Assembly (NCBI RefSeq): GCF_000376825.1
Contig: NZ_AQXW01000003.1
Location: forward strand, 62,001-126,000
Source: Demetria terragena DSM 11295
GTDB taxonomy: Bacteria; Actinomycetota; Actinomycetes; Actinomycetales; Dermatophilaceae
Length of the DNA stretch: 64,000 bases
Direction: 5' to 3'
This document shows, piece after piece, positions 37,352-53,272 of this stretch. How positions within the stretch are numbered: the stretch's first letter is position 1; each line of letters starts with the position of its first letter. The notes beneath the pieces are model-generated. The model was given only the letters and a program-made list of their open reading frames with translations. It searched no databases and was not told the DNA's origin. Position numbers and translations under genes: made by a program.

Positions 37352-38887
37352 TCAGGTACGCGCAGCCTCGATCGCGCGACGTACCTGGGTGATCTGGTCC
37401 AAGGTCAGGCTAGGGCGGGTCGCCCACTCCAGATTGTCCCGTACCTGTTCCAGGGTGTCGGCGCCGACGGCCATCGAGGTCACGAAGTCATGGCCCAGGA
37501 CGAAGGCGATGGCTAGATCGGCGATTCCGGTGCGCCCGAATTGCTCCGCGAGGCGAGTGAGTGTCGTGGCGAGCGGGTGGTCTGGTGCGAACAGTCGGCC
37601 GCCGCCAAATCCGCCGTATGTCGTCACGACAACATCCCGCTCGGACAGATCAGCGCCGAGGTCAGCCCACGGCGGGTCGACCACCGACATCGGGATCTCG
37701 AGGTATCCCAACTCTGGGAGGGCGAGCGCGTCGCGTAGTTCGCTGGGCGAGGTGACGGTGACACCAACTCTGCCGACGACGCCCTCCGCGTGGTAGTCGA
37801 GGAGGCGTTGCCAGGCCGCACCTGAGCCAGCGTGCGCGTCGGTCACGGAGGGAAACAAGGCTGCGGCCATGGACCGCCGGCCGAGACTGGCAAAACTGCG
37901 CTCCAGGTGTGCGCTGACCGATTGAGTAACCGTCTCATCATGGTTGGCGTCGGCCGGTGCCAGTCGGCAGATGACCGAGAGGCGTCGGGTCAGTTGTGGA
38001 TCGGCGTTCTGCTGGAGGACGCCTTCTGCTCGACCGTCGTCCTGCAGGAGGTCGACGTGCGTGACTCCACGATTGACCGCGGCCGCCAGCATGGCGCGGA
38101 TGACCTCCGCGCGCGGTGCAGGCGAGTTTGCCAATTGGTCTCCACCGATCACTACGGCGCTTTGACCCAGCTCTGATCGGTCGCGGACCGGGACGCTGGG
38201 GCCGTCGGTGAATTCGGCTTGGGCAAGACGCCGAATGATCGAGGGCCACGGTGCCGCGACGGGATCGGTGAGGTCGGCAAAGACACGGCAGACGCGGTCG
38301 TAGTCGGCCAGGACGTCCACGGTGCATCGATAACGGCGAGGGTCGCCAGGGTTATCGACGGGCACGTAGTCCAGGGTGGGAATGTTGCGTCGCAGCCACG
38401 GAGTGACGTGCTCGCGGTCATACGAATCAGTGGCGTGGGCGCCCGCGCTGCGAAGGTCCTTGACCGAGAACACTTCACAACCCAAGCCCTCGGGCACGTG
38501 GGCCACGTCGACGCGGCCATAGCCATAGCCGCCCGCGGACATGGCCGCTGCGAGTTCGTCGATCAACGTCGCGTCGCCGACGGGGTTGTCACCGGTCAGC
38601 CGGACGACGGTGTCGACATCGCTGAGATCGCTTGTCGCTGCGAGGAACCGGCCGAGGACATCATCAAGATCTCCGCGGACCACATCGATGCCAGCGCGAG
38701 ACAAGTGGTCGGCGATTCGGCTGTCGTAGTGTTCCTGGCTGGTGGCAACCACGACCTCGTGCCCGCTGCGCGAGGCTCGTCGTGCCACCAATTCGATGAG
38801 GGGCATCCCGGCGATTGTCAGCAGCGCCTTGCCGGGAAGGCGCGATGAGTTGAGCCGGGATTGGATGACAACGCGGGTGCGGGTCAC
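37352..38887 (-). CDS. pseF: PseF/SpsF-type cytidylyltransferase fused to a degenerate aldo/keto-reductase domain
   Basis: This 511-residue protein should activate pseudaminic acid with CTP to CMP-Pse. The N-terminal domain (1 to about 230) has the SpsF/CMP-NeuA-like nucleotide loop VVIQSRLNSSRLPGKALL, VVRGDLDDVLGRF and VRLTGDNPVGDATLIDEL. From about 245 the protein folds like an aldo/keto reductase (start QSAVVIGGDQLA; GVTHVDLLQDDGRAEG aligning with the DTA..YG region). However, the catalytic Tyr aligns with Asp, the Lys with Arg (VICRLA), and the His position is not conserved (AALFPS). The second domain therefore looks catalytically dead. It is the last gene of the pseG-pseF minus-strand pair; its start overlaps the pseG stop by 4 bp. 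Confidence 0.8.
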   Translation of the reverse strand: MTRTRVVIQSRLNSSRLPGKALLTIAGMPLIELVARRASRSGHEVVVATSQEHYDSRIADHLSRAGIDVVRGDLDDVLGRFLAATSDLSDVDTVVRLTGDNPVGDATLIDELAAAMSAGGYGYGRVDVAHVPEGLGCEVFSVKDLRSAGAHATDSYDREHVTPWLRRNIPTLDYVPVDNPGDPRRYRCTVDVLADYDRVCRVFADLTDPVAAPWPSIIRRLAQAEFTDGPSVPVRDRSELGQSAVVIGGDQLANSPAPRAEVIRAMLAAAVNRGVTHVDLLQDDGRAEGVLQQNADPQLTRRLSVICRLAPADANHDETVTQSVSAHLERSFASLGRRSMAAALFPSVTDAHAGSGAAWQRLLDYHAEGVVGRVGVTVTSPSELRDALALPELGYLEIPMSVVDPPWADLGADLSERDVVVTTYGGFGGGRLFAPDHPLATTLTRLAEQFGRTGIADLAIAFVLGHDFVTSMAVGADTLEQVRDNLEWATRPSLTLDQITQVRRAIEAART

Positions 38888-39951
38888 GCGTCCCTCCGCG
38901 GGTCGGTGGTGGACAAGAGACGTTCGATGTCGGTCACGACACGTTGCCGACCACGACCATCGACGAGGCGTTGGCCGCGCTGGCTCAGAGTCTGTCGCTG
39001 CGCTGGGTCACTGAGGAGCCGCCTCAGCGTATCGACCGCTGCGCGACGCGCATCAGGTTGTTGTCGCAGGTCATCCAGAAGCCCAAGGCCAGCGACAACA
39101 CCGTGCTCAACAGTGGCGCGGTAGCCCGGCGCCTGGTTATCGACGACGCACACCGCTGCGGTCGGGACTCCCAAGCAGAGCAATTCCCAGATCGAGGATC
39201 CGGACGCTGAGACGGCGAGGTCGGAGTTCGCCGCGATCCGTGCGAGATCAGGGTCGGGCGGTATGGCGTGCACGGCCTGTTCGGGACCATGGTCAAGGTC
39301 GCTCAAAGCTGCCCGGACGTTGGAGTCGGATGCTATGGCAGTCACGGACACCGGGCGCTCGGTCTCTAAGAGAAGTGGCACGACGGCGCCTGAGGCTTCG
39401 AAGGGGTCGGTGCCGCCAAACACTGTCAGGACCCGGAGCGGAGCCTCCGTCGTGCGTGGCGGGGTAGCCGCAATGCGCGCGAGCACCGAGTCGCGAAACA
39501 GTGCGTACTCGATCCCGGCCAGCGCCGAGGAGTGCTGGGGCAGCGGATCCGGCGGTTTGGCGCCGAGGTTCTGATCGACATAGAGATGCGCGAACTGGGC
39601 TGAACCAAAATCGTGGTCAACCATCGCCACTACGAATATGCCTGCAGCGCGGAGGGATTCGCCAGAGTCGAGGTCGAGGTCGTACCCATCGAGCACGACG
39701 ACATCCAGACCGAGCCGGTGCGCGAGGTCAGCGAGACTGGAGGGGGCCGATGGGGCGTCGTGAATCTCGATCCCGTGATCGGCGTAGGCGGCCGCAAGCC
39801 AGGGCACATCAATCACCCCCAGCGCGACGATCGTGCAGCCGCGCTGTGCGAGCTCCTCAGCGAGAGCGAGCAGCCGGACGGCATGGCCCACGCCCGTGCC
39901 GTGCCCAGCATCACAGCGAAGGCCGACGCGCGTCGCGGCGAGCGGCTGCAT
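38884..39951 (-). CDS. pseG: UDP-2,4-diacetamido-2,4,6-trideoxy-beta-L-altropyranose hydrolase
   Basis: This 355-residue GT-B-like hydrolase should release UDP from the bis-acetamido altrose intermediate, giving the free sugar used by PseI. The catalytic motif GVGHAVR (20-26, with His23) is intact. VFGGTDPFEASGAVVPL and SASGSSIWELLCLGVPTAAV form the nucleotide-binding C-terminal half. AAAGGA precedes ATG 39951. It is divergent from pseB across a 129-bp promoter region. Confidence 0.85.
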   Translation of the reverse strand: MQPLAATRVGLRCDAGHGTGVGHAVRLLALAEELAQRGCTIVALGVIDVPWLAAAYADHGIEIHDAPSAPSSLADLAHRLGLDVVVLDGYDLDLDSGESLRAAGIFVVAMVDHDFGSAQFAHLYVDQNLGAKPPDPLPQHSSALAGIEYALFRDSVLARIAATPPRTTEAPLRVLTVFGGTDPFEASGAVVPLLLETERPVSVTAIASDSNVRAALSDLDHGPEQAVHAIPPDPDLARIAANSDLAVSASGSSIWELLCLGVPTAAVCVVDNQAPGYRATVEHGVVAGLGLLDDLRQQPDARRAAVDTLRRLLSDPAQRQTLSQRGQRLVDGRGRQRVVTDIERLLSTTDPRRDA

Positions 39952-40080: not shown

Positions 40081-41070
40081 TTGAGCGTTCTGGAAGGGTC
40101 GTCCATCCTTGTCACCGGGGGCACCGGGTCGTTTGGAAAGGCGCTGATCCGGCGCTTGCTTGACGAGGTCAAGCCACAGCGGATCGTTGTCTATTCGCGC
40201 GACGAATTAAAGCAATGGGAAGTTCGCCAACTGTTCAACGACGATTCACGTTTGCGATTCTTCATTGGCGATGTCCGAGACCTGGATCGGCTCAACCGCG
40301 CGACGCACGGCGTCGACTACGTCGTTCACGCGGCTGCGCTCAAGCAGGTAGACACCGGCGAGTACAACCCGTCAGAATTCGTCAAGACCAACGTTCACGG
40401 TAGCCAGAACGTGATCGAGGCGTGCATCAACAACAATGTCAAGAAGGTTGTCGCCCTCTCGACGGACAAGGCATCCAGCCCGATCAATCTGTACGGTGCG
40501 ACGAAACTGACCGCGGACAAGTTGTTCACGCTCGGAAACCACTATGCTGCGGCCTACGACACACGATTTGCGGTCGTACGCTACGGAAACGTCACCGGTT
40601 CGCGCGGATCAATCATTCCGAAGTTCAAGGCGCTCCACGAGGCAGGGAAGTCCTTGCCTATCACTGACTTGCGGTGCACCCGCTTCCTCATCACCTTGCC
40701 CCAGGCCGTCGATATGGTCCTGGACACCTTTGAGTTGATGCAGGGCGGTGAGTTGGTGGTACCGCACATCCCGTCCCACAAGGTGACCGACCTCGCCCAG
40801 GCCATCGCTCCCGGCGCGAAGATGCATGACATCGGCCTCCGTCCGGGGGAGAAGCTGCACGAAGAGATGATCTCGCCGGAAGAGGGCCGTCGGGCGATCA
40901 CGGTGATGGATGGCAAGTACTACATCCTGGAACCCGAGCTGGCGACCTGGGGCTACGTCAAGCGTACGGACGGGACACCTGTCGAGGACGGCTTCCACTG
41001 CGCCTCCGACAAGAACGACATCTGGTATGACGCGGAGGACATTCGCGAGATCCTGAACCTCGAAGTCTGA
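40081..41070 (+). CDS. pseB: UDP-N-acetylglucosamine 4,6-dehydratase (inverting)
   Basis: This 329-residue SDR enzyme catalyses the first Pse step, C4 oxidation, C6 dehydration and C5 epimerisation of UDP-GlcNAc. Visible are the NADP-binding GGTGSFG (13-19), the Asp129-Lys130 catalytic pair in STDKASSPIN, and Tyr138...Lys142 in NLYGATKL, as in the FlaA1/PseB class. Length matches the family. The start is TTG 40081 with AGGAG about 8 nt upstream, and the N-terminus then aligns with the beta strand. pseC follows after 7 bp. Confidence 0.9.
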   Translation: MSVLEGSSILVTGGTGSFGKALIRRLLDEVKPQRIVVYSRDELKQWEVRQLFNDDSRLRFFIGDVRDLDRLNRATHGVDYVVHAAALKQVDTGEYNPSEFVKTNVHGSQNVIEACINNNVKKVVALSTDKASSPINLYGATKLTADKLFTLGNHYAAAYDTRFAVVRYGNVTGSRGSIIPKFKALHEAGKSLPITDLRCTRFLITLPQAVDMVLDTFELMQGGELVVPHIPSHKVTDLAQAIAPGAKMHDIGLRPGEKLHEEMISPEEGRRAITVMDGKYYILEPELATWGYVKRTDGTPVEDGFHCASDKNDIWYDAEDIREILNLEV

Positions 41071-41077
41071 GGCGCCC

Positions 41078-42214
41078 ATGTCGATGCTTCCCTATGGGCG
41101 TCAGTCCATCTCGGACGATGATGTCAAGGCTGTCGCGGAGGTCCTTCGAGGCGATTGGTTGACCACCGGTCCGGCCGTGGACAGGTTCGAGAAGGAATTG
41201 GGGGCCGTCGCTGGACAGTCGAACCCGGCTGTCGCTGTCACTTCAGGGACCGCCGCTTTGCACGTCGCGTATGCAGCGGCAGGCGTTGGACCGGGGGATG
41301 AAGTCATCACGAGTCCGTTGACGTTCCTCGCGACCGCGACGAGCGCTGCCATTCACGGCGCTACGGTCGTCTTCGCGGACGTCTGCGAGGACACCGGAAA
41401 TCTTGACCCCGCCGCCGTTGAGGCGCTCGTGACGGACCGGACCAAAGTCATCAGTGGAGTCGACTTTGCGGGCCATCCCATGGACGCGCCTGGACTGCGT
41501 GCCGTCGCGGATCAAGCGGGCGCCCTCCTCCTGGAGGATGCTGCGCATTCCATTGGCGGCAGCCTGGACGGGCGTCCGGTCGGGTCGCTTGCGGACCTGA
41601 CCACGTTCTCGTTCTTCCCGACCAAGAACCTGACCACGGCCGAAGGCGGTGCCGTGGTCGCCCTGGACCCTGACATCGCGCGTAAGGCGCGGACGTTCAA
41701 GGGCATCGGAATGGTCCGGGACCCCGATCGGCTCCGGACGACTGACGAAGGCCCGTGGTGGTACGAGATGCCTGACCTCGGGCTCAACTACCGACTTCCC
41801 GATGTGCTGTGCGCACTCGGCTCCAGCCAATTGACCCGACTGTCACAGTTCAAGGCCCGCCGCGCGCAGATCACCCAGCGCTACCACGAGGGCCTGGCTG
41901 ACGTCCCCGGCCTGCGGCTGCCGACCCAACGCGTAGGTGCGGATCCGGTCTGGCACTTCTACCCGCTGCGGGTCCTGGATGGGCGCCGCCGTGGGTTGTT
42001 TGAGCGCCTACGTGCCGAAGGAATCGGCGTCCAGGTGAACTATATTCCCGTCCATTGGCAGCCGTGGTTTGCTGACCGTGGCTATCAGCGGGGAAGTTGT
42101 CCAGTGGCCGAGACCTACTACGAGCAGGAGATCAGTTTGCCCATGTTCCCTGACCTGTTGGATGCGGACGTCGATCGGGTGATCGACGGCATTCGTAGAC
42201 ACTTCGGAGCCTGA
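41078..42214 (+). CDS. pseC: UDP-4-amino-4,6-dideoxy-N-acetyl-beta-L-altrosamine transaminase
   Basis: This 378-residue DegT/DnrJ/EryC1-type PLP aminotransferase should aminate the PseB product at C4. The PLP lysine is Lys183 in SFFPTKNLTTAEGG. LEDAAHSIGGSLDGRPVG supplies the Asp-His cofactor contacts, and SGTAALHVAYAA binds the phosphate. Length and order fit PseC. Its TGA overlaps the next gene's ATG by one base. Confidence 0.9.
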   Translation: MSMLPYGRQSISDDDVKAVAEVLRGDWLTTGPAVDRFEKELGAVAGQSNPAVAVTSGTAALHVAYAAAGVGPGDEVITSPLTFLATATSAAIHGATVVFADVCEDTGNLDPAAVEALVTDRTKVISGVDFAGHPMDAPGLRAVADQAGALLLEDAAHSIGGSLDGRPVGSLADLTTFSFFPTKNLTTAEGGAVVALDPDIARKARTFKGIGMVRDPDRLRTTDEGPWWYEMPDLGLNYRLPDVLCALGSSQLTRLSQFKARRAQITQRYHEGLADVPGLRLPTQRVGADPVWHFYPLRVLDGRRRGLFERLRAEGIGVQVNYIPVHWQPWFADRGYQRGSCPVAETYYEQEISLPMFPDLLDADVDRVIDGIRRHFGA

Positions 42215-43062
42215 TGCACCACGCCAACCACTTCTACGGGCACGCGCACATCATGGCGCGCTACACCGGCTTGGCCGAGGTGCCGCGCATCTGGGGCTAC
42301 CTGCAACATGGCTGGAATACCTACGACGGGTTTGCTGTCGGCACCAAGTTCGCGCCGAATTATCCACGCCTGGTGTGGAGTTCGTCGGTAGCGCGTCGCG
42401 CCTGGAGCCTTGGCCTGCGACAGAACATCGTGGTTGCCGCACCCTGGGCATACTTGCTGGAGTTGGAAGGGGTCAGCACGGCCAATGCCGGGATAGACGA
42501 CCGCGAGGGCACGATTGTCTACCCCTTCCATGGGTGGGAGGGTCAGAGCATCATCGGCGACCACGAGCTCTACCTCCAGCAAGTGCGGGAGGTAGAGGGC
42601 GATGTGCCGATCACGATGTGTCTCTACTGGAACGAATATCGCGACCCGGCGGTCCGGTCGATCTATGAGGATGCGGGCTTCCGGGTGATCTCCCACGGCG
42701 AGCGCGGGTACCTGTGGAAGGACACCGATGTGCACTTCCTCGACAAGCAGCTCGCTGAGGTGCGGCGGCATAAGCGAGTCGTCAGTAACCGCCTAGGAAG
42801 CGCTCTGATCTACGGCGCCAGTGTGGGGTGCGAAGTCGGAATCTATGGCGATCCGATGATCCTAGAAGCCGAGCGAGTGGCGCTCGGCGGTCGCGAGAAA
42901 CAAATCCGGCTGTTCCCCGAGCTGCACCAACCCTTCGTGCCGCAGGACTACGCGCAGGCGCTCGCGCGCGCCGAGTTGGGGCAGGACGAGATGTTGTGCG
43001 CGGAGGAGATTCGTGACCTCTTCGGCTGGCGCGATGCCGTGCGCGGCTCGCTGGAATCGTAG
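42214..43062 (+). CDS. Uncharacterised protein in the pse operon, possible glycosyltransferase
   Basis: This 282-residue soluble protein is coupled to pseC by a one-base overlap. It is rich in aromatic residues: GYLQHGWNTYDGF (about 27-39), LRQNIVVAAPWAYLLE and a later SALIYGASVGCEVGIYGDPM, which resembles the donor-binding half of GT-B glycosyltransferases. The LYWNEYRDPAVRSIYEDAGF segment could be the interdomain region. No cysteine cluster, signal peptide or membrane helix. It could transfer Pse or another sugar, or modify the sugar. I do not assign a family. Confidence 0.6.
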   Translation: MHHANHFYGHAHIMARYTGLAEVPRIWGYLQHGWNTYDGFAVGTKFAPNYPRLVWSSSVARRAWSLGLRQNIVVAAPWAYLLELEGVSTANAGIDDREGTIVYPFHGWEGQSIIGDHELYLQQVREVEGDVPITMCLYWNEYRDPAVRSIYEDAGFRVISHGERGYLWKDTDVHFLDKQLAEVRRHKRVVSNRLGSALIYGASVGCEVGIYGDPMILEAERVALGGREKQIRLFPELHQPFVPQDYAQALARAELGQDEMLCAEEIRDLFGWRDAVRGSLES

Positions 43063-43072
43063 CCCGAGCGCG

Positions 43073-44125
43073 TTAGACCAAGTCCCAGGTGAACGCCGTG
43101 CCCTTCGCGACGTCATGTTGGAAGGTGCGTCCTTCAACGCGCGAAAACTCCTCTGGCGCAATCCCGTTGGCCGGTCGGATGGATCGGACGTTGTCTGGCC
43201 CCACGATGTCGCCGGCGGCAACGTCCGTCACGACGTAGAGCGACCGGCGGAACCGTAGACCTTCCTTCTCCTGCTGTCGCGCACCGATGCGGGCCTGGCC
43301 GAGGCACTGCCACCCGATCTCGGTCTGTTGAACTAGCGAGGCGAGCTCGGCAGGCTCCGAGGAGAACGATGAATCAACGCCGCCCCCGTCACGCTGCATC
43401 GTGACGTGCTTCTCCACGACACAGGCGCCGAGCGCGACGGCAGCGACCGCAGCACCGATCCCGACAGTGTGATCGGAGTAGCCGACCAAGGTGCCAAAGG
43501 CATCAGCCATGACCGGGATGCCTCGCAGGTTGGACTCGCTGGGGTCGGCCGGGTAGTTGGCCGTGCACGCCAGGACGACGATCTGGTCGTTGCCCGTGCT
43601 TCGCGCTGCGTCGACCGCAGCGCTGATCTCCTGGAGTGATGCCATCCCGGTCGAGATGATGATCGGCTTGCCTTTGCTGGCGGCGAGTCTGATCAGAGGG
43701 AGATCGACGATCTCTGATGAGGCGATCTTGTAGGCCGGAGTGCCGAGGTCCTCGAGGAGATCAATCGCGGTGGGGTCGAAGGGGGAGGAGAAGACGGTGA
43801 TGCCCGCCTTGTGCGCTTCTTCGAAAATGGGGGCGTGCCACGCCCACGGCGTGTGTGCCTCGGTATAGAGATCCCACAGTGTCCGGCCGCCCCACAAGTC
43901 ATGATCCTGCGACAGCCGGAAATCGGGGGCATCAGAGTCGATCGTGATGGTCTGCGGTGTGTACGTCTGCAGTTTGACCGCGTCGGCGCCCTGTTCGGCG
44001 GCCATTCGGACGATCGCTAGCGCTTGGTCGAGCGATCCGTCGTGGTTGCCCGACATTTCGGCAATGATGTAGGGCTTCTGATTCGGTCCGATGGTTCGAC
44101 CGGCAAGGGTGATGCTCCGCGTCAT
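43073..44125 (-). CDS. pseI: Pseudaminic acid synthase
   Basis: This 350-residue NeuB-family enzyme should condense the PseG product with phosphoenolpyruvate to form pseudaminic acid. The TIM-barrel domain has IIAEMSGNHDGSLDQA (about 20-35), VKLQTYTPQTITID and VGYSDHTVGIGAAVAAV. The metal-binding KHVTMQRDGGGVDSSFS stretch matches the PseI subgroup rather than sialic acid synthases. A C-terminal SAF/antifreeze-like domain (about 285-345) closes the active site. It lies 20 bp after pseH, in a minus-strand pair. Confidence 0.9.
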   Translation of the reverse strand: MTRSITLAGRTIGPNQKPYIIAEMSGNHDGSLDQALAIVRMAAEQGADAVKLQTYTPQTITIDSDAPDFRLSQDHDLWGGRTLWDLYTEAHTPWAWHAPIFEEAHKAGITVFSSPFDPTAIDLLEDLGTPAYKIASSEIVDLPLIRLAASKGKPIIISTGMASLQEISAAVDAARSTGNDQIVVLACTANYPADPSESNLRGIPVMADAFGTLVGYSDHTVGIGAAVAAVALGACVVEKHVTMQRDGGGVDSSFSSEPAELASLVQQTEIGWQCLGQARIGARQQEKEGLRFRRSLYVVTDVAAGDIVGPDNVRSIRPANGIAPEEFSRVEGRTFQHDVAKGTAFTWDLV

Positions 44126-44145: not shown

Positions 44146-44649
44146 TCAGCGTTGCGGACGCACCCGCCGAATTCGATAGACCGTGACTAACTCGTCGAGA
44201 ATTCGACGCTTATCCATGCGGATTTCCTCGAAGCCATTTCTCGAGTTCATACTCCGTACACCTTCGTTGCTCTCGATGACCTCGCCCTCGAGGGCGTCAA
44301 GATTGAGCTGCTCGTCGGCGTAGCGGACCGCCTCGCGTTGGATCTTGATCCAGGCAGGGAGCAGCTCGCCGCGCTCCGACAACCCCGCATTATCAAGGTA
44401 GTAGCCCCACATGGCTTGCCGCCGACCGTCGTGCTCGGCGATGTCGAAGAAGGTCACCACTCCCGCAGGTGCTCCGTTGCGCTCGTACACAAGGACCTGG
44501 CGAGTGTCGTCCGATTCGACCGCTTCCCACCAGGCGGAATGCATCTCGGCGGTGATTTCCTCGCGGTTCAGCGAGACCGCCTGAACCTCGGGGTGATTGC
44601 GCCAGCGTCGAATTGCCTCCAAGTCAGCGGAGGTGGCTGGTCGAAGCAT
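44146..44649 (-). CDS. pseH: UDP-4-amino-sugar N-acetyltransferase
   Basis: This 167-residue GNAT-fold enzyme probably acetylates the C4 amino group made by PseC, using acetyl-CoA. MLRPATSADLEAIRRWRNHPEV and an EGEVIESNEGVRSMNSRNGF segment match PseH-type and related amino-sugar acetyltransferases. The assignment relies partly on context, since all other Pse enzymes flank it. Its divergent neighbour is the acyl carrier protein. Confidence 0.8.
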   Translation of the reverse strand: MLRPATSADLEAIRRWRNHPEVQAVSLNREEITAEMHSAWWEAVESDDTRQVLVYERNGAPAGVVTFFDIAEHDGRRQAMWGYYLDNAGLSERGELLPAWIKIQREAVRYADEQLNLDALEGEVIESNEGVRSMNSRNGFEEIRMDKRRILDELVTVYRIRRVRPQR

Positions 44650-44743: not shown

Positions 44744-44995
44744 ATGAGCGCGCTCAGCCGGGACCAGATTCGCACGATGATGGATGAGGTTCTGACCGCC
44801 CAAGGTAAGGAACTGCCAGCCGACGACTCCACCGCGCTGGCTGAGATCGGCTTCCGATCGCTGGATTTCTCAGAACTCGCACTCCGCGTCGAGGACGAGC
44901 TGGACGAGGAGCTCAACTTTGATGCGCCTGGCCTACGGTCGATCGAGACCGTCGGGGATGTCCTGGACCTCCTCGATCGGTTGCAGAACGCGTGA
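44744..44995 (+). CDS. Acyl carrier protein
   Basis: This 83-residue acidic carrier protein has the phosphopantetheine attachment Ser39 in IGFRSLDFSEL (a GxxSLDxxEL variant of the usual DSL motif) and the following recognition helix. It is not the housekeeping AcpP: it heads a four-gene run with an AMP-forming ligase, a reductase and a probable phosphopantetheinyl transferase inside the glycan locus. The stop overlaps the ligase GTG. Confidence 0.85.
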   Translation: MSALSRDQIRTMMDEVLTAQGKELPADDSTALAEIGFRSLDFSELALRVEDELDEELNFDAPGLRSIETVGDVLDLLDRLQNA

Positions 44996-46263
44996 CCGCA
45001 GTGCTGCCCGCGGGCGCACATAACCGGGTCGTGGTGGCAGACGACACGGTCTTCGATGGCGCCTGGAGCGATCTTGCGCCGTGGTCAGGCGTTCCGGCGG
45101 TTGCCGCATTCTTGACGCGCGACTTGTTGGCGCCAGCTCGTGCCGCATGGTTGGCGGCGAGCGAACCCCATCGGGAAACCCTGATCGCCACCGCCGCGCG
45201 CGTAGGTATCGCGCAGCAGCAGGAATGGCGCGACGGCGGGATGGCGATCGTGCGGTGGCCCACGGCGCAGCCCGACGCAGGCCACGATGACCAGCACGTC
45301 GACCACCCTGAGGCGCCGCGCGAGCCGGATGCCGGCCGCGTGTGGCTCCTCACCTCCGGATCGACTGGCCGACCCAAGCAGGTGGCGCACACGATTGACT
45401 CGCTCACCACGGTGGCCACAGACCAGCCGCCCCGCACCTGGCTGTGCCCCTACACGCCGGGCGCCTATGCGTGGTGGCAGGTCGTGACGCTCTCGCTCTC
45501 GGTGCCAGGTCAGGACATCGTGTTCGTCGATGGCGCTCGCGCGGACATCTGGCCGCATCGCGCACTAGAGGCCGGTGTGACGGCCGCGTCCGGCACACCC
45601 ACGTTTTGGCGGCAGGCGATTTTCCGCTCGGGGGAGACGCTCGCTCAGTTGCCTTTGGAACAGATCACGCTGGGCGGCGAGCCCGTCGATCAGGCAATCC
45701 TCGATCAGCTCGGCGAGATGTTTCCGGACGCTCGGCTTTCCTGGATCTACGCCTCCTCCGAGGCGGGCGCGGCGATTGCCGTCCACGATGGCCAGGCCGG
45801 GTTCCCCTCGGCCTGGCTGGATCGGCACACGCCCGGTCGACCTCAGGTGCGGGTCGTCGACGGCGAACTGGTGATCGTTGCCACGCATGGCGCACAAGGC
45901 ATGGACACCGAGATCCGTACCGGTGACCGAGCCGATACCCATGGTGATCGGGTCCTGATTACGGGTCGTCTTGCCTCGGATGAGATCAACGTTGGCGGGG
46001 CCAAAGTCTCGGCTGCCGAGGTGCGCGGTGTGCTGCTCCAACACCCAGAGGTCCTATGGGCCCACGTTCGGGGACGTAAGGCGCCGATCGTGGGACAGAT
46101 GGTCCAGGCGGAAGTCGTCCCCGCGGGCGCTGCGGCGACTGATGGATTGACCGACCGACTCACGCGCTGGTGCCGTGACCGATTGCCCGAGTATGCGGTG
46201 CCCCGACGTATCCGCGTCCTGTCCGAAATTCCGATCAAGGAGACGCTGAAGAGCGATGTCTGA
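44992..46263 (+). CDS. AMP-forming acyl-ACP/acyl-CoA ligase
   Basis: This 423-residue adenylating enzyme should activate a carboxylic acid as acyl-AMP and load it on the adjacent ACP. It has the P-loop LTSGSTGRPKQ (120-130), LGGEP and WIYASSEAGAAI regions, the TGDRAD hinge, and ends KETLKSDV with the catalytic C-terminal Lys (residue 420). The N-terminal domain is about 100 residues shorter than usual. It stops immediately after the Lys motif, which is compact but complete. It overlaps the reductase gene by 8 bp. Confidence 0.82.
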   Translation: MTAVLPAGAHNRVVVADDTVFDGAWSDLAPWSGVPAVAAFLTRDLLAPARAAWLAASEPHRETLIATAARVGIAQQQEWRDGGMAIVRWPTAQPDAGHDDQHVDHPEAPREPDAGRVWLLTSGSTGRPKQVAHTIDSLTTVATDQPPRTWLCPYTPGAYAWWQVVTLSLSVPGQDIVFVDGARADIWPHRALEAGVTAASGTPTFWRQAIFRSGETLAQLPLEQITLGGEPVDQAILDQLGEMFPDARLSWIYASSEAGAAIAVHDGQAGFPSAWLDRHTPGRPQVRVVDGELVIVATHGAQGMDTEIRTGDRADTHGDRVLITGRLASDEINVGGAKVSAAEVRGVLLQHPEVLWAHVRGRKAPIVGQMVQAEVVPAGAAATDGLTDRLTRWCRDRLPEYAVPRRIRVLSEIPIKETLKSDV

Positions 46264-47008
46264 CTTCACCCAAACCCCCATCCCGGCAGCGTCCTGCGTC
46301 CTTATCTCTGGCGGCTCCCGTGGGCTGGGATTGAGCCTGGTCGAGGATGCGCTGAAGCAGGGTGCCAAGGTGGCGACTTTCGCGCGTACGGTCACACCTG
46401 AACTCGAGAAGCTTGCGGCTGATCGCCCTGGTGAGGTCTTCGTCGGCTCGGTCGATATCACCGATGCCAAAGCTCAGACCGCCTTCATCAAGGCCGCTGC
46501 CGCCGAGTTGGGCCCGATCGACGCCTTGGTCAACAACGCGGCGATCGGTCAGGACTCGATGTTGCTGCACACCAGCCCGGAGCGCATCGGTCAGATCATC
46601 GAGACCAACCTGACCGCCACCCTGGTCCTGACCCGCGCCTTCCTTCGGCACGCCATGGCCAAAGCCGGTCGCGGTCGGGTTGTCTTCGTCACCTCCGTGT
46701 GCGGCCAGCGGGGCTACGCCGGGTTGTCGGCGTACTCCGCCACCAAGGGTGGTCTTGATGCGGCGATGCGAACTCTCGCTCGGGAGATGCACGGCCGGTT
46801 CCTGGTGAACTCAGTCGCGCCGGGGTTCTTCGCTTCGGAGATGTCGAGTGTGCTTGGCACCGAACAACTTTCGACGATCACGCGGCGTACTCCCTCCGGC
46901 CGACTCGTGGAGCCGGAGAACATCGCGCCGGTTGTGCGATCGCTGTTGTTCGAGGACACCAATCTCAATGGGCAATCGCTCACGATCGATGGGGGCGGAT
47001 CCATCTGA
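46256..47008 (+). CDS. Short-chain dehydrogenase/reductase (FabG-like)
   Basis: This 250-residue NAD(P)-dependent enzyme has the glycine motif GGSRGLG (19-25), LVNNAAIG, catalytic Ser147, Tyr160 and Lys164 (AYSATKGG) and the C-terminal SLTIDGGGS. It is most like 3-oxoacyl-ACP reductases. In this operon it probably reduces an ACP-bound acyl group, although a sugar substrate cannot be excluded. Confidence 0.87.
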   Translation: MSDFTQTPIPAASCVLISGGSRGLGLSLVEDALKQGAKVATFARTVTPELEKLAADRPGEVFVGSVDITDAKAQTAFIKAAAAELGPIDALVNNAAIGQDSMLLHTSPERIGQIIETNLTATLVLTRAFLRHAMAKAGRGRVVFVTSVCGQRGYAGLSAYSATKGGLDAAMRTLAREMHGRFLVNSVAPGFFASEMSSVLGTEQLSTITRRTPSGRLVEPENIAPVVRSLLFEDTNLNGQSLTIDGGGSI

Positions 47009-47013
47009 GCACG

Positions 47014-47517
47014 TTGATAGCGCGCCAGGTCCATGGAGATCTACCCCATGACCTCCTGCGCGAGCTCGAATCTCCTTCTTTGAGAGGTGAATCGAGCCAC
47101 TTGCGGGTAGTCGATAGCACGGCTTCCTCGACTAATAAGCCACGGACCTACCTGGCGAATGGGCATCGCATCACTTGGCAGTTGAGTGCCTGGCCGGGTT
47201 GGCGAGTGGCTGTCGATGCCGAGCTGGCCGACCAGCAGGTGCCGGAGCACATCCGATCCCGGAGCCAACTTGACCCGGACGCGACGGACCGGGAAATCCT
47301 CGTGGCCTGGACCCAATCCGAAGTGCTCGCAAAACTAACCGACGAGCCAATTCTGTTGCGACTCAGGCGATGTGGACTGCGCATAGACGATCTTCCGCAG
47401 CGAGCACCGATCGGGCTCGTCACCGTGCAACATGAAGGGAATGTGACCACCGTGGGAGCAGCCGCGTGTGCCGTACACGACATTGAGGAACCTGAGGCCG
47501 GTGGTCAGCGTGGCTAA
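47014..47517 (+). CDS. Probable 4'-phosphopantetheinyl transferase-superfamily protein (divergent)
   Basis: This 167-residue protein has no obvious close family, but it shows the two motifs of holo-ACP synthases in the right order. These are VAVDAE (65-70, Asp and Glu for Mg2+) and, 29 residues on, WTQSEVLAK (99-107), matching the consensus W(S/C/T)xKEAxxK with the central Glu103 and Lys107 kept. It would convert the cassette's ACP to its holo form. The start is TTG 47014, 5 bp after the reductase stop. It overlaps the next gene by 17 bp. The assignment is inference from short motifs and context. Confidence 0.5.
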   Translation: MIARQVHGDLPHDLLRELESPSLRGESSHLRVVDSTASSTNKPRTYLANGHRITWQLSAWPGWRVAVDAELADQQVPEHIRSRSQLDPDATDREILVAWTQSEVLAKLTDEPILLRLRRCGLRIDDLPQRAPIGLVTVQHEGNVTTVGAAACAVHDIEEPEAGGQRG

Positions 47518-49273
47518 CGCCGCTAAGGCGGAGACCTCCGCACCGTCGACCGACCCACGACTCGCCGCGCGGCGCGCAGCGGCGAGCCCGCAGAAGCTCG
47601 GCCCTAAGTTCGATCAGTTCTGCGAGGCCGCCACCCAATTTTGGCCGCAGAACACCCTGCCTTCGCGGGATGCCACCATCCTGGTCGAACTCATGACCGA
47701 GGACATCCGAGTGGGCATTCGGAGCCTGACGATCGCCAACGCGATCCGTCGGGTCACCCCGGCCCGAGTCGTCGTCTACCTGGGCGCGGATGCGGACTGG
47801 AGCAGTTTCCAGTGGACCTACTACGACCGGGAGGGCCTGGAGAAGCTCGCTCGGGCGTACGGCGCGGACGATGTGATCGACGTTCACGAGATCGTCGATG
47901 ACGGGCTGCACGATCGCGAGGGCAGCGTCGAAATCGCCGGCAAGACAATCCCACTCGATCAACCCTCCCGCATCGCAGCCGACACCCTGGACCAACTCGT
48001 GGATGCGACAGCTGCACGGGTGATGCGCGTACCCCGTGTCACCGACGAGGTTCGAGCGACCGAGAAATATGCCGAGGTCCGGGCCCGGAGTGAAGCGTTC
48101 GCCCGCCTTTATGACGGGATGATGACCGAGCTGAATCCGGTGGCACTGGTCTCGAGCCACATCGACTACAACCATTGGGGGTTGGCCGTCGAGGCGGCGA
48201 TTCGTACGGGCGTTCCTACTATCCACGTGCAGACCACAGGCGGACTGAAGGCCTACCTGCTGACCCCGGAGCAAGCACAGGGTCGCGAGGGCACGTTCCG
48301 GATGCACCTGACCCGGCAGATCGCCGAGTTCTTTGAGAGCTATCTGTGGTCCAACCGGGATCTCCTGCGTCGCGGTGCCGAACTCACCGCGTGGCGCTCG
48401 AAGAGCAATCTTGGGCGACCGTCGTGGTGGCGGGGCGGGGGCGTCGTGTCGTCGCTGGAATTGAGCAATCCGCTGGAACGTCAGAACGTGCGAGAGCACG
48501 CGATGCAGCGACTGGGATTTGATCCGGACAAGCCGGTCGTCGTGGTGTTTAACCACGCGGTGTCTGACGCGCTCGGAACCAACCACGAACTCTTCGATGA
48601 TCTCGCGCACTGGTTTGAGGAGACGGCTGCCTACGCGGCTAATGACACGACCGTGAACTGGCTGTTCCAAGATCATCCAGCCCAGTTCCTCTACGACGTC
48701 ACCGGATTCTTCGACACCGTCAAAGAGCGCTACGCCGACCGGCCACACATGCAGTTCCGGCGTTCGTTCGACATGAGCAAGAACATCATCTGGAGCCTGG
48801 TGGACCTCGGTGTCACGGTGCGCGGTTCGGTCAGCGCAGAACTACCGGTCTATGGGATTCCCGCAATCCAGGCGGGCTGGTCGGAGTGGAGCGGTTGTGG
48901 ATTCTCGCTCGTCGCCAAAGACCGCGAGGACTACTGGCGCCTCCTGAAGGAGACCACCGACAAGATTCGCGCTGGGATCTCGCCGATCAGCAAAGAACAG
49001 GTTGAGCGCGCTCGCCTATGGCAGTGGTTCTATCGAAGCGGGGGTGATGTGGCGTCCCACCTAGTCCAACACTGGGACCTTGGCCAAAACAACGAACTGT
49101 TCCGGGCGCTCACCGTGGCCATGCGTCACGTCGAGAGCGACGGTGAAGCGGGCCTGGAAGCGACCCAACGAATGTGGCGACAGGGTGACCCGATCTTGAC
49201 CCGGGTGGACTTCACCGGCGGATCTGAGCAATTGGCTCGTCAACTCGGTGTCTTGGCAGAAGTGGAAGTGTGA
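47501..49273 (+). CDS. Probable surface-polysaccharide glycosyltransferase (capsule-synthesis/GT-B type)
   Basis: This large protein (about 590 residues) lacks membrane helices. The central and C-terminal parts look like the capsule-polysaccharide/CDP-glycerol transferase superfamily: VVVFNHAVSDALG, WLFQDHPAQFLYDVTGFF and the donor-site VRGSVSAELPVYGIPAIQAGW. The N-terminal 250 residues have an alpha/beta half with SSHIDYNHWGLAVEAAIRTG. It would build or extend a surface glycan, with donor sugar unknown. GTG 47501 and GTG 47510 are both possible starts, each overlapping the previous gene. Confidence 0.6.
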   Translation: MVSVANAAKAETSAPSTDPRLAARRAAASPQKLGPKFDQFCEAATQFWPQNTLPSRDATILVELMTEDIRVGIRSLTIANAIRRVTPARVVVYLGADADWSSFQWTYYDREGLEKLARAYGADDVIDVHEIVDDGLHDREGSVEIAGKTIPLDQPSRIAADTLDQLVDATAARVMRVPRVTDEVRATEKYAEVRARSEAFARLYDGMMTELNPVALVSSHIDYNHWGLAVEAAIRTGVPTIHVQTTGGLKAYLLTPEQAQGREGTFRMHLTRQIAEFFESYLWSNRDLLRRGAELTAWRSKSNLGRPSWWRGGGVVSSLELSNPLERQNVREHAMQRLGFDPDKPVVVVFNHAVSDALGTNHELFDDLAHWFEETAAYAANDTTVNWLFQDHPAQFLYDVTGFFDTVKERYADRPHMQFRRSFDMSKNIIWSLVDLGVTVRGSVSAELPVYGIPAIQAGWSEWSGCGFSLVAKDREDYWRLLKETTDKIRAGISPISKEQVERARLWQWFYRSGGDVASHLVQHWDLGQNNELFRALTVAMRHVESDGEAGLEATQRMWRQGDPILTRVDFTGGSEQLARQLGVLAEVEV

Positions 49274-49274
49274 C

Positions 49275-50357
49275 ATGACGACAGATGAACACCCTCCCGT
49301 CGACGTGGAGCAGCGGCTGGCCAGCTCCCCTCAGCTCACCTTTGACACCATCTTTGACGAACCGGTGCCGACCCTCCAGGTTCCATGCACCCTGACCGAG
49401 GGACAGCGACCTGAGGTCAAGGTGGTCGATCGATTCACCCGAGGTCTGGCGATCGTCGGACGATTCGCGCTTGAGCCGAGCTTGATCGGTCTGAAGGTGA
49501 CACCCGGATCAACAGACGCCGTCCGGGTGCTCGTCCAGTTCAGCGTCGATGCCGTCACCGACACCTGGTGGAGCAAGCGCACACCAGCCGACACGGTCAG
49601 ATCGGACGATGCCACGGCCCGGATGTTCGTACTGCGTTCGCAGGGCAAGACCCGTGCTGCCGTCGCCCTCGCCGCGCCAGACATGACGCCCGACGGGCCC
49701 ATCCGCGCCCAGGTGGAGTTCGATTGCGAACCGGGCGCCGTCAACCCCGACGGGTTGCTCATTCTGGAAGTGCTGCAGCCGGAGGGATTGCCTCGGTGGG
49801 CGGCGCGGCGGGTCATGCCCTACGCACCCGTCGGCGTGCGAATCGACAAGATCTCACTGCTCGAGGCGCAGGGCGAAGCGCCGCAAGTGCGGCCCTTCGT
49901 CATCAATCACCAGGACCCGACTCAGTGGCAGATCCTGACCCTCCACCCGGATGCCGCGGGCGCCGCGGGGAGCGTACGGGTTCGGCGCCATTACCGTCGG
50001 CCACCCGATCTGCTGACGCGCGCGGCCCGTAAGGCGGTCCGGGAAGGGCGGTCGCGGATCTTGCGTCAGAACGATTCGGCTCACGCTATGCAGGAGGTTG
50101 TGCAGGGTTGGCTCGATCGGGACGAACTCGAGGTGACGGCAGTGGCCCTCGCGGACGGTCGACCGGTGTCCATTGAAGTTCGGCCGGGGAGCGGAAATGG
50201 CAACCGTGACCATGCCTTTGTCAGGTTCCACGTCGCTGACTCCGGCACTGGTCCGGTGGTGGTCGGGCTGCGGCACCGGGACAAGGCCATTGCCGATCGT
50301 CCCGAGGTGGGGCATCGCCTGGTGACCTGGGAGGTCACTGCGGACTGGCGAGGCTGA
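49275..50357 (+). CDS. Uncharacterised glycan-locus protein
   Basis: This 360-residue protein has no recognisable domain. It appears beta-rich with two similar-sized parts: LAIVGRFALEPSLIGLKVTPG and VLVQFSVDAVTDTWWS in the first, FVRFHVADSGTGPVVVGL in the second. A basic helical segment lies between them (LLTRAARKAVREGRSRIL). No signal peptide is visible. The pattern suggests a carbohydrate-binding or accessory role for the preceding transferase, but this is speculation. ATG 49275 lies one base after the transferase stop, with GGAAG upstream. Confidence 0.55.
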   Translation: MTTDEHPPVDVEQRLASSPQLTFDTIFDEPVPTLQVPCTLTEGQRPEVKVVDRFTRGLAIVGRFALEPSLIGLKVTPGSTDAVRVLVQFSVDAVTDTWWSKRTPADTVRSDDATARMFVLRSQGKTRAAVALAAPDMTPDGPIRAQVEFDCEPGAVNPDGLLILEVLQPEGLPRWAARRVMPYAPVGVRIDKISLLEAQGEAPQVRPFVINHQDPTQWQILTLHPDAAGAAGSVRVRRHYRRPPDLLTRAARKAVREGRSRILRQNDSAHAMQEVVQGWLDRDELEVTAVALADGRPVSIEVRPGSGNGNRDHAFVRFHVADSGTGPVVVGLRHRDKAIADRPEVGHRLVTWEVTADWRG

Positions 50358-50394: not shown

Positions 50395-52260
50395 CTATAT
50401 CCCGAGACGGGTGAGCACCCGCTCGAGTTGGGCTGTGCGCTGTGGCGGGGCGATCGCGAAGGCCGTGCGTTTGGCGCGGGTCACCACGCGTTCTCCGACG
50501 CGGCGTCCTGGAGCGGTCAACCGCCGTCCCAGGACGTAACTGGGGGAGCTTTGAAGGCGGGCGAGGCGGCGCTCCAAGTCTCGTACCGACTGATCGCGTT
50601 GCCTCACGGCCGACTCCAGCCAGGTCACTTGATCTCCGCGGGTGTGGAGTTCCTGCGACATGCGACCTAGCGATGACATCGCCTCGCGATACCCGCGTGA
50701 GGGGGACGAGGTGGCCGTAAACTGGGAGGCGCCGTTCGCAAGGTTCTCCGCGAGTAACTGACTTTCGGTGGTCGCCCCTCCGCCGTGGATCACGACGGAG
50801 AGCTCGGCTTCGCGTGATGCGATCTGACTCGCGACATCAGGGGACCAGGGCTTGCCGACCATGGCCAGCAGCGTCTGGGTCAGGGCATCCGGGCTGATGT
50901 CCGGCTGCCACGGGTGTTCTCCGCCGGACTGCAGGAGCCGACGGGCGAACTCGCGCAGGCCGCGCGCGAGACACAGATCCGCGTCCAGGTCTTCAGTCCA
51001 GGACCAACTCTCGTCGAAGAGCTCCATCGAACCATCGGGTCCAAGCACGACATTGTTCGGCCCGGCAAAGAAGCGCTTGGTCAGTCCGCCGTCCCGCCAG
51101 ACTGCGTCGTCGCTGAGGAAGGCCGCGTAATCACGAGTGAGTCGGCGGACGCCGGTGAGATTCCCTCGGGCGCACTCGGCGCGCAGGGCCGCCTCCAAAA
51201 GGTCGCCACTTGGCAATCGGCCACCCACCAGGGAGAGGTCCCGGGAGACGCGCCGCTCAAACATGGGCCCAGCGTGGTGAAGCGGCAGGATCGACCGCTC
51301 CCAGCCGTCCGCGTCCTGGCTCGCCGTCATGATGCCGGACCACTGCGGGCTCACACCGTCTTCGCTCTGGAGAAGTTGCGGTCGATCTGCAGTGGCCGTT
51401 TCCGAGGATGCTTCGCCCTTGCGGGCCTCCACGACCCAGCCTGCGGCCGTGTGTGGGCCGAGGCCGGCCGCCAAGAATCGCCGTGACATGGAATAGAGGT
51501 CGATCAGACTGCGATGTCCGTGAGCCTGATCGGACTCAATCTTCGCAATGAGCGACTCCAATCCGGCGCGACCGGTTGAATCCTCCGCAATGGCGGGGTC
51601 TACCAATAGTGACATTTGGTTGAATATTGGGTAACCACTGTATAGACGATCGATTGATAATCCTGCGGCAGAAACGATCTCGGGAAGTTCGGGATACAGG
51701 GGATTTCGGGACTCGAACTCGTCCGCGCCGCGATGCCATGAGGTGTCGTCGTCGAACAGAGTGCGCATTTCGAGCCGGAAAACGTGATCCATCGCGAGAT
51801 CGTTAGCGACTGCCACAATGGCCCGCCCACGATCTCCGAGAAATTCGCCGGACCGCTTGATCGTCTCTGCGTAGGTCAGCGGTGTCGAGTCCGGGGTCAG
51901 GAGGCCCTGGGGGCCGTCGAGGTTGACCACCACGTCGTACGGAGCACCTGGCTTGAAGCGCTCAAAACCGCCAGCGAAAACACGCAGATGTTGGCGTTCC
52001 TGGGCGTGGCTCGCCAATTCGCGAGCATCGACCAGGGAGCGCACCAGAATGTCAACGGGACGATCGGGGCGGACGACGTCCACGAGAGTTGCCGCGTGAG
52101 GTCCGATTAGTGCAACGCGACCAGGATGTTCTCCCAGCACAGAATGCAGCAGATAGGCAATCGCTCCGGGGCGAGAAAGGCGCGAGAAGTCTTCGGTCAT
52201 GACCTCGCCGCCGATGAGGCGAACTCCCGAGGAGGTGTCGATAGCGTGTTGTTCGGTCAA
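50395..52260 (-). CDS. Methyltransferase-like protein with C-terminal coiled coil
   Basis: This 621-residue multidomain protein begins with a degenerate Rossmann methyltransferase-like domain (about 25-230: VALIGPHAATLVDVV, YDVVVNLDGPQGLL, GDRGRAIVAVAND); the usual GxGxG loop is absent. The middle region has GPNNVVLGPDGSMELFDES (about 390-420), resembling the metal-binding end of kinase-like domains. Residues about 525-575 form a coiled coil (LERRLARLQ), followed by a basic tail. The layout recalls chain-length-capping proteins such as WbdD. TTG 52260 was chosen for the GAGAGG RBS 7 nt upstream. A longer frame from 52296 is possible. The region near 51600-51660 is unusually AT-rich. Confidence 0.55.
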   Translation of the reverse strand: MTEQHAIDTSSGVRLIGGEVMTEDFSRLSRPGAIAYLLHSVLGEHPGRVALIGPHAATLVDVVRPDRPVDILVRSLVDARELASHAQERQHLRVFAGGFERFKPGAPYDVVVNLDGPQGLLTPDSTPLTYAETIKRSGEFLGDRGRAIVAVANDLAMDHVFRLEMRTLFDDDTSWHRGADEFESRNPLYPELPEIVSAAGLSIDRLYSGYPIFNQMSLLVDPAIAEDSTGRAGLESLIAKIESDQAHGHRSLIDLYSMSRRFLAAGLGPHTAAGWVVEARKGEASSETATADRPQLLQSEDGVSPQWSGIMTASQDADGWERSILPLHHAGPMFERRVSRDLSLVGGRLPSGDLLEAALRAECARGNLTGVRRLTRDYAAFLSDDAVWRDGGLTKRFFAGPNNVVLGPDGSMELFDESWSWTEDLDADLCLARGLREFARRLLQSGGEHPWQPDISPDALTQTLLAMVGKPWSPDVASQIASREAELSVVIHGGGATTESQLLAENLANGASQFTATSSPSRGYREAMSSLGRMSQELHTRGDQVTWLESAVRQRDQSVRDLERRLARLQSSPSYVLGRRLTAPGRRVGERVVTRAKRTAFAIAPPQRTAQLERVLTRLGI

Positions 52261-52334
52261 GGAAATGCCTCTCAGGTGGTGTCTACTCGCGGGCACAGCC
52301 TACCCGTTGAAAGATTCGGCCGGTTCGAGTCGGC

Positions 52335-52390: not shown

Positions 52391-53272
52391 GTGGGCGATC
52401 AAAAGGCGCGGCCAAAGATCGGTGTTGTGATCCTTCATATGGGGGATCGGCCCGATGAATTTCAGCGTGCGATGGCCGACGTGCTCAAGCAAGAAGGCGT
52501 CGACCTCGACGTGGTCGTCGTCGGCAACGGATGGCGGCCGACCAATCTGCCGGATGGTGTCCGCGGCCACTTCCTGCCTAAGAACGTTGGAATTCCCGAA
52601 GGGCGCAACGTCGGGGCGCGTGCGGTCAGCGGGGACTACATCTTCTACCTCGACGACGATGCGTCGATCGTGAAGACAGACGTCCTGGCAAGACTGGCGA
52701 CGGCCATCGAGGCACGCGACAAGGTGGCCCTCGTGCAGCCGCGATTGAGTGACCCGGTGACGGACCAGGCGCCGAGACGCTGGGTACCGCGCCTGATCGT
52801 GGGTCGAGGCATTGGTCGCGCCGGCCGAGTGGCCGTCTTCTCCGAAGGGGTCGTGCTGATCCGCCGGAGCGCCTTCGAGGAAGTTGGGGGATGGCCGGGG
52901 CAGTTCTTTTTCGGGCACGAAGGGATCGAGGTCGCCTGGCAACTCACCCATCGCGGATGGACGATGTGGTACGACCCCACGATCTCGGTGCACCACCCGT
53001 ACACCGAGGCGAGTCGGCACCCAACACACTTCTTCACCAACGCGCGTAATCGGGTCTGGGTCGCGCGTCGCAACCTTCCCGCGGTGCTGATCCCGCCCTA
53101 CCTGATGTCCTGGGCAGGCATCACCGCTGCACGAACTCGTGACCTCGACTCCATGCGGACGTGGGCCAGCGGCTTCGCCGCCGGGGTGCGTGAGCCTGCC
53201 GGTCAGCGGCGGGTCATCTCGTGGCGAACGGTCGCCACGCTGATTCGTATCGGTCGGCCACCGGTCGTCTGA
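52391..53272 (+). CDS. GT2 family glycosyltransferase
   Basis: This 293-residue GT-A enzyme has VGIPEGRNVGARAVSGDYIFYLDDDASI, reported here as GRNVGARAVSG and YLDDDAS. The DDD metal/nucleotide-sugar motif and the later FFFGHEGIEVAWQLTHRGW acceptor segment are typical of rhamnosyl- and galactosyl-type family 2 enzymes. Sugar specificity is unknown. GTG 52391 lies 7 nt after TAGGCT (leaderless pattern). The stop overlaps the next ATG by one base. Confidence 0.87.
   Translation: MGDQKARPKIGVVILHMGDRPDEFQRAMADVLKQEGVDLDVVVVGNGWRPTNLPDGVRGHFLPKNVGIPEGRNVGARAVSGDYIFYLDDDASIVKTDVLARLATAIEARDKVALVQPRLSDPVTDQAPRRWVPRLIVGRGIGRAGRVAVFSEGVVLIRRSAFEEVGGWPGQFFFGHEGIEVAWQLTHRGWTMWYDPTISVHHPYTEASRHPTHFFTNARNRVWVARRNLPAVLIPPYLMSWAGITAARTRDLDSMRTWASGFAAGVREPAGQRRVISWRTVATLIRIGRPPVV

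Follow-up and report, generated by a model that had tools for sequence, protein, structure and literature searches.

What does an acyl carrier protein (ACP) do beside the genes for pseudaminic acid (Pse), accompanied by a ligase and a reductase and by no ketosynthase? The question is raised by a 64,000-nucleotide stretch of the Demetria terragena DSM 11295 genome (contig NZ_AQXW01000003.1; hereafter the window, with positions counted from its first letter), in which a four-gene run at 44744–47517 encodes an ACP, a short ANL (AMP-forming) ligase, a short-chain dehydrogenase/reductase (SDR) and a protein of 167 amino acids. By comparison with characterized systems, we read this cassette as a variant of the mupirocin-type priming cassette that appears to have been recruited to glycan acylation.

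A conserved four-gene cassette tied to pseudaminic acid genes

All four genes proved genuine, and they are conserved and linked to Pse. An open reading frame (ORF) check agreed with their coordinates, and Ser39 of the ACP, the VAVDAE and WTQSEVLAK motifs of the 167-amino-acid protein and the lack of a ketosynthase among the cassette genes were all found as a first-pass annotation of the window had described them. Successive genes overlap by 4 and 8 bases, and a 5-base gap precedes the last ORF. Pfam domains were assigned to the first three genes (PP-binding; AMP-binding and AMP-binding_C; adh_short), and the scan returned no match for the 167-amino-acid protein. The ligase, previously described as ending at its catalytic lysine, is indeed a short AMP-forming enzyme; Lys420, invariant in 17 of 17 aligned sequences, is the fourth residue from its end (...KETLKSDV).

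An orthologous ligase (E ≤1e-20) is present in 32 of the 186 genomes of the window's own family, and a relative of the 167-amino-acid protein (E ≤1e-3) in 34, namely 31 of the 32 cassette genomes plus three weak matches; the other ligase-bearing genome, G178, gave no match to the 167-amino-acid protein in a single-sequence search. ACP, ligase, SDR and 167-amino-acid protein follow one another in this order in all 20 family regions from genomes matching both proteins, and the ACP is 72–84% identical across the 20. In a class-wide sample, the ligase profile matched 17 of 394 genomes at E ≤1e-40, and in seven of these E was no higher than 1e-150. When named genomes were scanned, 148 ligase relatives came up; the best 80 were kept, several of their loci stopping at contig ends, and they placed the cassette in Micromonospora, Kribbella, Nocardioides, Flexivirga, Dermacoccus, Knoellia, Terrabacter, Raineyella and others. 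All 80 loci contain the ligase and SDR, 79 the ACP, 74 a PseH relative, 68 a PseI relative and 66 a member of the 167-amino-acid family; the order ACP–ligase–SDR holds in 79 of the 79 actinobacterial loci with all three genes.

The link to Pse, offered only as a possibility in the first-pass annotation, is strong at the genomic level. PseI scored over its cut-off in 39 of the 186 family genomes, including 31 of the 32 with a cassette; the remaining one, G087, lacks a PseI call, and its contig ends inside pseI. A profile of the cassette-type PseH (E ≤1e-10) matched every one of the 32 cassette genomes but not one of the 154 others, eight of which are Pse-positive without a cassette; genera g43 and g52 contain both cassette states. 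The odds of this co-occurrence would be 1.3e-8 if all 40 genomes were independent, a figure weakened by shared ancestry and linkage. In all 74 named loci with a PseH relative, pseH is divergent from the ACP gene, at a distance of at most 400 bp in 63.

Kinship with mupirocin and thiomarinol priming enzymes

The first-pass annotation knew of no described system of exactly this form in actinobacteria. A similar one exists: in the mupirocin pathway, as PMC10098928 describes it, the adenylation domain MupQ works with MupS and a carrier, MacpD, to convert malonyl-CoA to 3-hydroxypropionyl-ACP, and the same paper gives thiomarinol a 4-hydroxybutanoyl starter. MupQ/MupS/MacpD and TmlQ/TmlS/TacpD resemble the window cassette in combining an ANL ligase, an SDR and a dedicated ACP, and the mupirocin set has a known hydroxyacyl-ACP product. 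The mupirocin priming cassette is said to have been established by Walker in 2020, with a CoA/ACP bis-thioester intermediate. The sets differ in context and order: the Mup and Tml genes are tied to a polyketide synthase, whereas the window cassette is tied to Pse genes and a putative phosphopantetheinyl transferase (PPTase; see below), and the ACP gene comes first in the window cassette and last on the thiomarinol plasmid. Relatives were also found beside pseI in Azospirillum, and a literature search turned up no paper that we judged to treat such a cassette in Pse loci.

The best sequence match of the window SDR among solved structures is MupS (PDB: 4yxf; 153 bits, the next PDB match scoring 128), and the SDR is 38% identical to MupS and 41% to TmlS. 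In a tree whose outgroups were all 27 other SDR loci of the window's own genome plus FabG 2nm0, and thus almost only from that genome, the cassette SDRs, MupS, TmlS and the SDRs of related sets, including Azospirillum, formed one clade at 100/99, with FabG 2nm0 and the best FabG candidate of the genome as sister group (98/98). The bootstrap of this larger tree was not fully settled, and a smaller tree with fewer rows gave the same support. The earlier description of the reductase as FabG-like was corrected accordingly, and a plain FabG assignment was rejected on both the MupS sequence match and the trees. It would have suited a route in which the ligase loads a 3-oxo acid such as acetoacetate and the SDR reduces the 3-keto group, yielding 3-hydroxybutyryl-ACP for PseH. 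The SDR does score 159.8 bits with TIGR01830 (3-oxoacyl-ACP reductase), and PMC3210612 reports 3-hydroxybutyryl on several marine-bacterial amino sugars; that score is under the cut-off of 297.75, however, and the SDR groups with MupS and TmlS rather than with the FabG proteins, so we consider this route unlikely.

The ligase tree gave a corresponding picture. Cassette, Azospirillum, Qingshengfaniella and TmlQ-type ligases grouped together at 99/95 (97/95 with the TmlQ-type in a smaller tree), apart from 19 ANL rows from the window's own genome, which supplied the outgroups; TmlQ and not MupQ was sampled, and a distant class-sample ligase, L187, entered the trees.

Ligase and SDR also lie together elsewhere. 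Of 13 plasmid records with a match to the SDR at E ≤1e-30, every one has a ligase match as well, no more than 0.15 kb from that of the SDR. Plasmid NC_015708 of the thiomarinol strain carries ligase, SDR, ACP and polyketide synthase genes in that order, the SDR being 61% identical to MupS; we take these for TmlQ, TmlS and TacpD, names assigned in this analysis. Related sets lie ahead of a type I polyketide synthase in Bradyrhizobium, in Burkholderia, and near a glycosyltransferase in Qingshengfaniella. In Bradyrhizobium elkanii, an annotated 4'-phosphopantetheinyl transferase (L269:16034-16708) comes after the ligase–SDR–ACP–polyketide synthase genes, which parallels the linked PPTase of the window. 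In two Azospirillum regions with flagellin and Pse genes, the same ACP–ligase–SDR order stands beside pseI, followed by ketoacyl synthase III (KAS III) and flagellin; the ligase is 40% and the SDR 45–46% identical to those of the window, whereas the ACP is visibly different and no PPTase is annotated in either region.

SDRs are common in sugar pathways. The SDR, whose presumed substrate is deduced from kinship to MupS, might accordingly serve the sugar pathway and leave the ACP-bound acid alone, the ligase then loading a hydroxy acid or amino acid that is already complete. We regard this as highly unlikely, in that the three genes are kept as a unit in the mupirocin, thiomarinol plasmid, Bradyrhizobium and Burkholderia polyketide contexts, where the stretches read carry no annotated Pse genes.

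The 167-amino-acid protein resembles a minimal phosphopantetheinyl transferase

Conserved residues and the modelled fold indicate that the 167-amino-acid protein is very likely a minimal PPTase. In an alignment of 29 family members, with identity to the window protein down to 23%, nine columns are invariant in every row (G50, W55, D68, A69, E70, W99, E103, K107 and P112). The spacing of D-x-E and W-x3-E-x3-K is presumably that of Sfp, from which we take the catalytic roles of these residues. The combined pattern DxE(15–70)WxxxExxxK is kept in 65 of the 66 PPTase ORFs of the named loci; within the window it occurs in one of 299 six-frame stop-to-stop ORFs of at least 100 amino acids, the 167-amino-acid ORF itself. 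Conservation and fold together rule out a chance motif as the explanation of this signature.

Structure prediction, which the first-pass annotation had named as a check that could refute the PPTase reading, gave a PPTase-like fold (mean predicted local distance difference test score [pLDDT] 84.7 and predicted template modelling score 0.80 for the AlphaFold model). The likeness is modest: the best Foldseek match is PptT 8gkf_H at E 3.2e-3, and the best VIA structure comparison reaches Z 7.0 with a root-mean-square deviation (rmsd) of 3.5 over 127 residues. Eight of the first ten Foldseek matches are titled PPTases and two only "Transferase", with an unrelated protein at rank 11. Thirty-nine of the 50 VIA rows shown carry titles that name AcpS, Sfp, PptT, another PPTase or a PPT domain, eight are fatty-acid-synthase chains aligned at the C-terminal part and three are titled only "Transferase"; 47 of the 50 are PPTases, PPT domains or synthase chains bearing a PPT domain. 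AcpS aligned to residues 61–153 at Z 6.9, and the protein therefore looks like an AcpS-like lobe with a shrunken N-lobe.

The family thus has the fold and both motifs in common with Sfp/PptT and AcpS, and differs from them in its length (122–169 amino acids), its short N-lobe and the lack of a Pfam match over cut-off. None of the 29 members matched PF01648 over cut-off; four gave weak matches, the best at E 0.083. In genome G593, the family profile weakly matches (E 0.005) a place that PF01648 matches at 1.9e-9. A PDB sequence search with the profile returned only D-threonine aldolase (E 0.25), judged a chance match. Absence of the SHS motif was dropped as a family mark: the pattern is missing from 86 of 86 family ORFs and present in 10 of 10 AcpS, but all four Sfp-type proteins examined in relatives lack it too. 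Two atypical arrangements were seen, a possible fusion in G015 (L057:7688-8911, minus strand) of the PPTase and a downstream family-2 glycosyltransferase in one 408-amino-acid open frame, and in G093 (L156:1174-1863, minus strand) an AcpS-like domain seemingly joined to a carrier-protein-like C-terminal domain.

The cassette had been called self-contained on account of its own PPTase. This is borne out in 66 of the 80 named cassettes and fails in 13 (10 Kribbella, one assembly labelled Streptomyces, one Actinocatenispora and one Frankiaceae metagenome-assembled genome), in which the family PPTase was not found; at the fourteenth locus, L098, the contig breaks off, and a fragment is present in that genome. 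The same 13 genomes gave no family PPTase elsewhere in a search that scored at most 150 candidates per genome, in 12 of them out of about 300–380 first-look candidates. A widened PPTase-like motif pattern found nothing beside the cassette in any of the 13 loci, whereas it recovered the PPTase at all three loci used as positive controls. The PPTase is therefore not required in every lineage. Extra Sfp-type enzymes were ruled out as the cause of its absence, since PF01648 counts do not separate the two groups: Kribbella-type genomes have three or four matches each, both in three with the PPTase and in 11 without it, the Streptomyces-labelled assembly being one of the latter.

These absences, together with the lack of a Pfam match and the fast evolution of the protein (31–45% identity across the 20 family regions versus 72–84% for ACP and SDR), would suit a degenerate, inactive PPTase or a partner protein, with the housekeeping AcpS activating the ACP. 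The presumed metal and base residues are nevertheless invariant and the motif is nearly always kept, which would be unexpected in a dead enzyme, and this explanation is in our view quite unlikely. In the window's own genome AcpS is the single PPTase with a PF01648 match, and nothing passes the 4PPT_N cut-off. It also contains a nonribosomal peptide synthetase-like region (G000:C4:2061413-2073521) with an ORF of 4081 amino acids, which the cassette PPTase might also serve.

A divergent PseH-type acyltransferase is the likely user of the acyl-ACP

The likely user of the cassette is the divergently transcribed PseH-type GNAT. Its model (pLDDT 94.8) superposes on acetyl-CoA-bound Helicobacter pylori PseH (HpPseH; PDB: 4ri1) at Z 20.9 and rmsd 1.9 over 157 residues, so the GNAT fold is intact. 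The protein shares fold and sequence kinship with the PseH structures 4ri1 and 4xpk, and differs from them in its link to an ACP cassette and in one loop: the KGVGQ loop of 4xpk is replaced by a RGELLPAW-type sequence. A [RQK]xGxG/A-type loop is missing at the aligned position from all but one of 93 cassette PseH rows, which comprise 88 distinct sequences, and from a GNAT beside the Azospirillum Pse genes, whereas the two tested GNATs from cassette-negative genomes and 4xpk PseH have one. The altered loop suggests that acyl-ACP may have replaced acetyl-CoA as the donor.

PseH could instead be an ordinary acetyltransferase, with a different enzyme placing the hydroxyacyl group on some other sugar, on a lipid or on a glycan that is already assembled. 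Its fold likeness to an acetyl-CoA-bound enzyme fits this, as do its score with TIGR03585 (88.1 bits, short of the 93.1-bit equivalog cut-off) and a distance of 3–5 kb between pseH and the cassette in 11 of the 74 named loci. The cassette PseH type is missing, however, from all eight Pse-positive genomes without a cassette, where a different GNAT was matched near pseI in three and none in five, and we consider this alternative unlikely.

A proposed route to hydroxyacylated pseudaminic acid

From gene content, order, conservation, predicted folds and co-occurrence we infer the following catalytic steps. The PPTase, judging from its fold and conserved residues, would turn apo-ACP into holo-ACP. 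The ligase would use ATP to couple a short acid to holo-ACP or, by analogy with MupQ, may take a dicarboxylic acyl-CoA, for example malonyl- or succinyl-CoA. The MupS-type SDR would reduce the bound unit to a hydroxyacyl group, perhaps 3-hydroxypropionyl or 4-hydroxybutyryl, as its kinship suggests. Because of the strict co-occurrence and the altered CoA loop, PseH would then draw on the ACP for this group, rather than on CoA for acetyl, and attach it to the UDP-sugar at the 4-amino position, which we take to be the later N7 of Pse in the pathway numbering.

Since MupQ, MupS and MacpD make 3-hydroxypropionyl-ACP, the window cassette most likely makes a short hydroxyacyl-ACP. That it does so for N-acylation of a Pse precursor is, by our estimate, evenly balanced. 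The fuller account, in which PseH switched from acetyl-CoA to hydroxyacyl-ACP, is fed by a repurposed mupirocin-type cassette with a new minimal PPTase family and defines a widespread actinobacterial Pse variant, is plausible at somewhat less than an even chance. The first-pass proposal, activation and reduction of a short acid and its transfer to Pse as a hydroxyacyl group, thus remains the best-supported model, with one revision: as the SDR is nearer MupS/TmlS than FabG, the starting acid, instead of being a 3-oxo acid, may be the acyl-CoA of a dicarboxylic acid. Fitting modifications have been described, with 4-hydroxybutyric acid amide-linked to Pse in a review (PMC9912281) and lactyl on Pse in PMC7281560.

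Several observations weigh against the proposed route. In Azospirillum the KAS III gene after the SDR means that the product there may be elongated. The ligase is only 26% identical to TmlQ, although it shares a clade with the TmlQ-type ligases. For the PPTase, Foldseek gave no match at E ≤0.001, the best VIA Z is below 8, profile–profile comparisons with actinobacterial alignments gave little signal (Sfp, probability 3%, E 0.015; AcpS, probability 31%, E 5e-4), and it was not found in 13 of the 80 named cassettes. Part of the co-occurrence is to be expected of neighbours inherited together. The loop test is not a strict one, as residues 69–115 hold a loose form of the pattern in 31 of 93 rows and a strict form in 8 (five examples from this wider stretch all lie ahead of the PseH loop), and cassette PseH scores 88 bits with the PseH model against 26 bits for each of the two cassette-negative GNATs. 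Given this near-cut-off score and the superposition on acetyl-CoA-bound PseH, acetyl-CoA is still a possible donor.

If correct, the proposed route would account for the delivery of N-acyl groups other than acetyl to nonulosonic acids, naming ACP rather than CoA as the donor, and would tie polyketide starter-unit chemistry to surface glycans, a starter module having turned to glycan decoration. It predicts a specific Pse modification in the window's family as well as in Kribbella, Micromonospora and Nocardioides. So small a PPTase, paired with a dedicated carrier, could also provide an orthogonal labelling pair.

Neighbouring genes

The cassette and the Pse genes around it are listed in Table 1. 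The cytidylyltransferase is taken for PseF by its place and domain; no PseF model was among its NCBIfam hits.

Table 1. Cassette and Pse genes in the window
Feature	Position	Strand	Evidence
Acyl carrier protein, 83 amino acids	44744..44995	+	PF00550 E 1.8e-4; phosphopantetheine Ser39 in GFRSLDF
Short ANL (AMP-forming) ligase, presumed acid:ACP ligase, 423 amino acids	44992..46263	+	PF00501 66 bits, PF13193 43 bits
SDR reductase, MupS/TmlS branch	46256..47008	+	adh_short; best PDB sequence match MupS 4yxf
Putative minimal phosphopantetheinyl transferase, 167 amino acids, TTG start	47014..47517	+	VAVDAE and WTQSEVLAK motifs; D68, E70, E103, K107 presumed catalytic
PseH-type GNAT N-acyltransferase	44146..44649	-	Divergent from ACP gene; proposed acyl-ACP user
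PseI, pseudaminic acid synthase	43073..44125	-	TIGR03586 441.8 bits, exceeding cut-off 340
PseC-like aminotransferase	41078..42214	+	TIGR03588 412.7 bits, slightly below cut-off 423.5
PseB dehydratase	40081..41070	+	TIGR03589 451.5 bits, exceeding cut-off 407.75
PseG-like hydrolase	38884..39951	-	TIGR03590 125.3 bits, below cut-off 153.55
Cytidylyltransferase and aldo/keto reductase domain, 511-amino-acid ORF	37352..38887	-	PF02348 and PF00248

The genes at 42214–43062, 47507–49273, 49248–50357 and 50395–52296 had no Pfam match at the thresholds used, save a weak DUF6087 match for the one starting at 49248; relatives of the proteins starting at 42214 and 50395 recur near Pse loci in related genomes. 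The gene at 53221–54258 is a candidate Pse transferase, with a weak match to PF07388 (alpha-2,8-polysialyltransferase; 21.1 versus 23.3 bits), and it recurs downstream of the cassette in many relatives.

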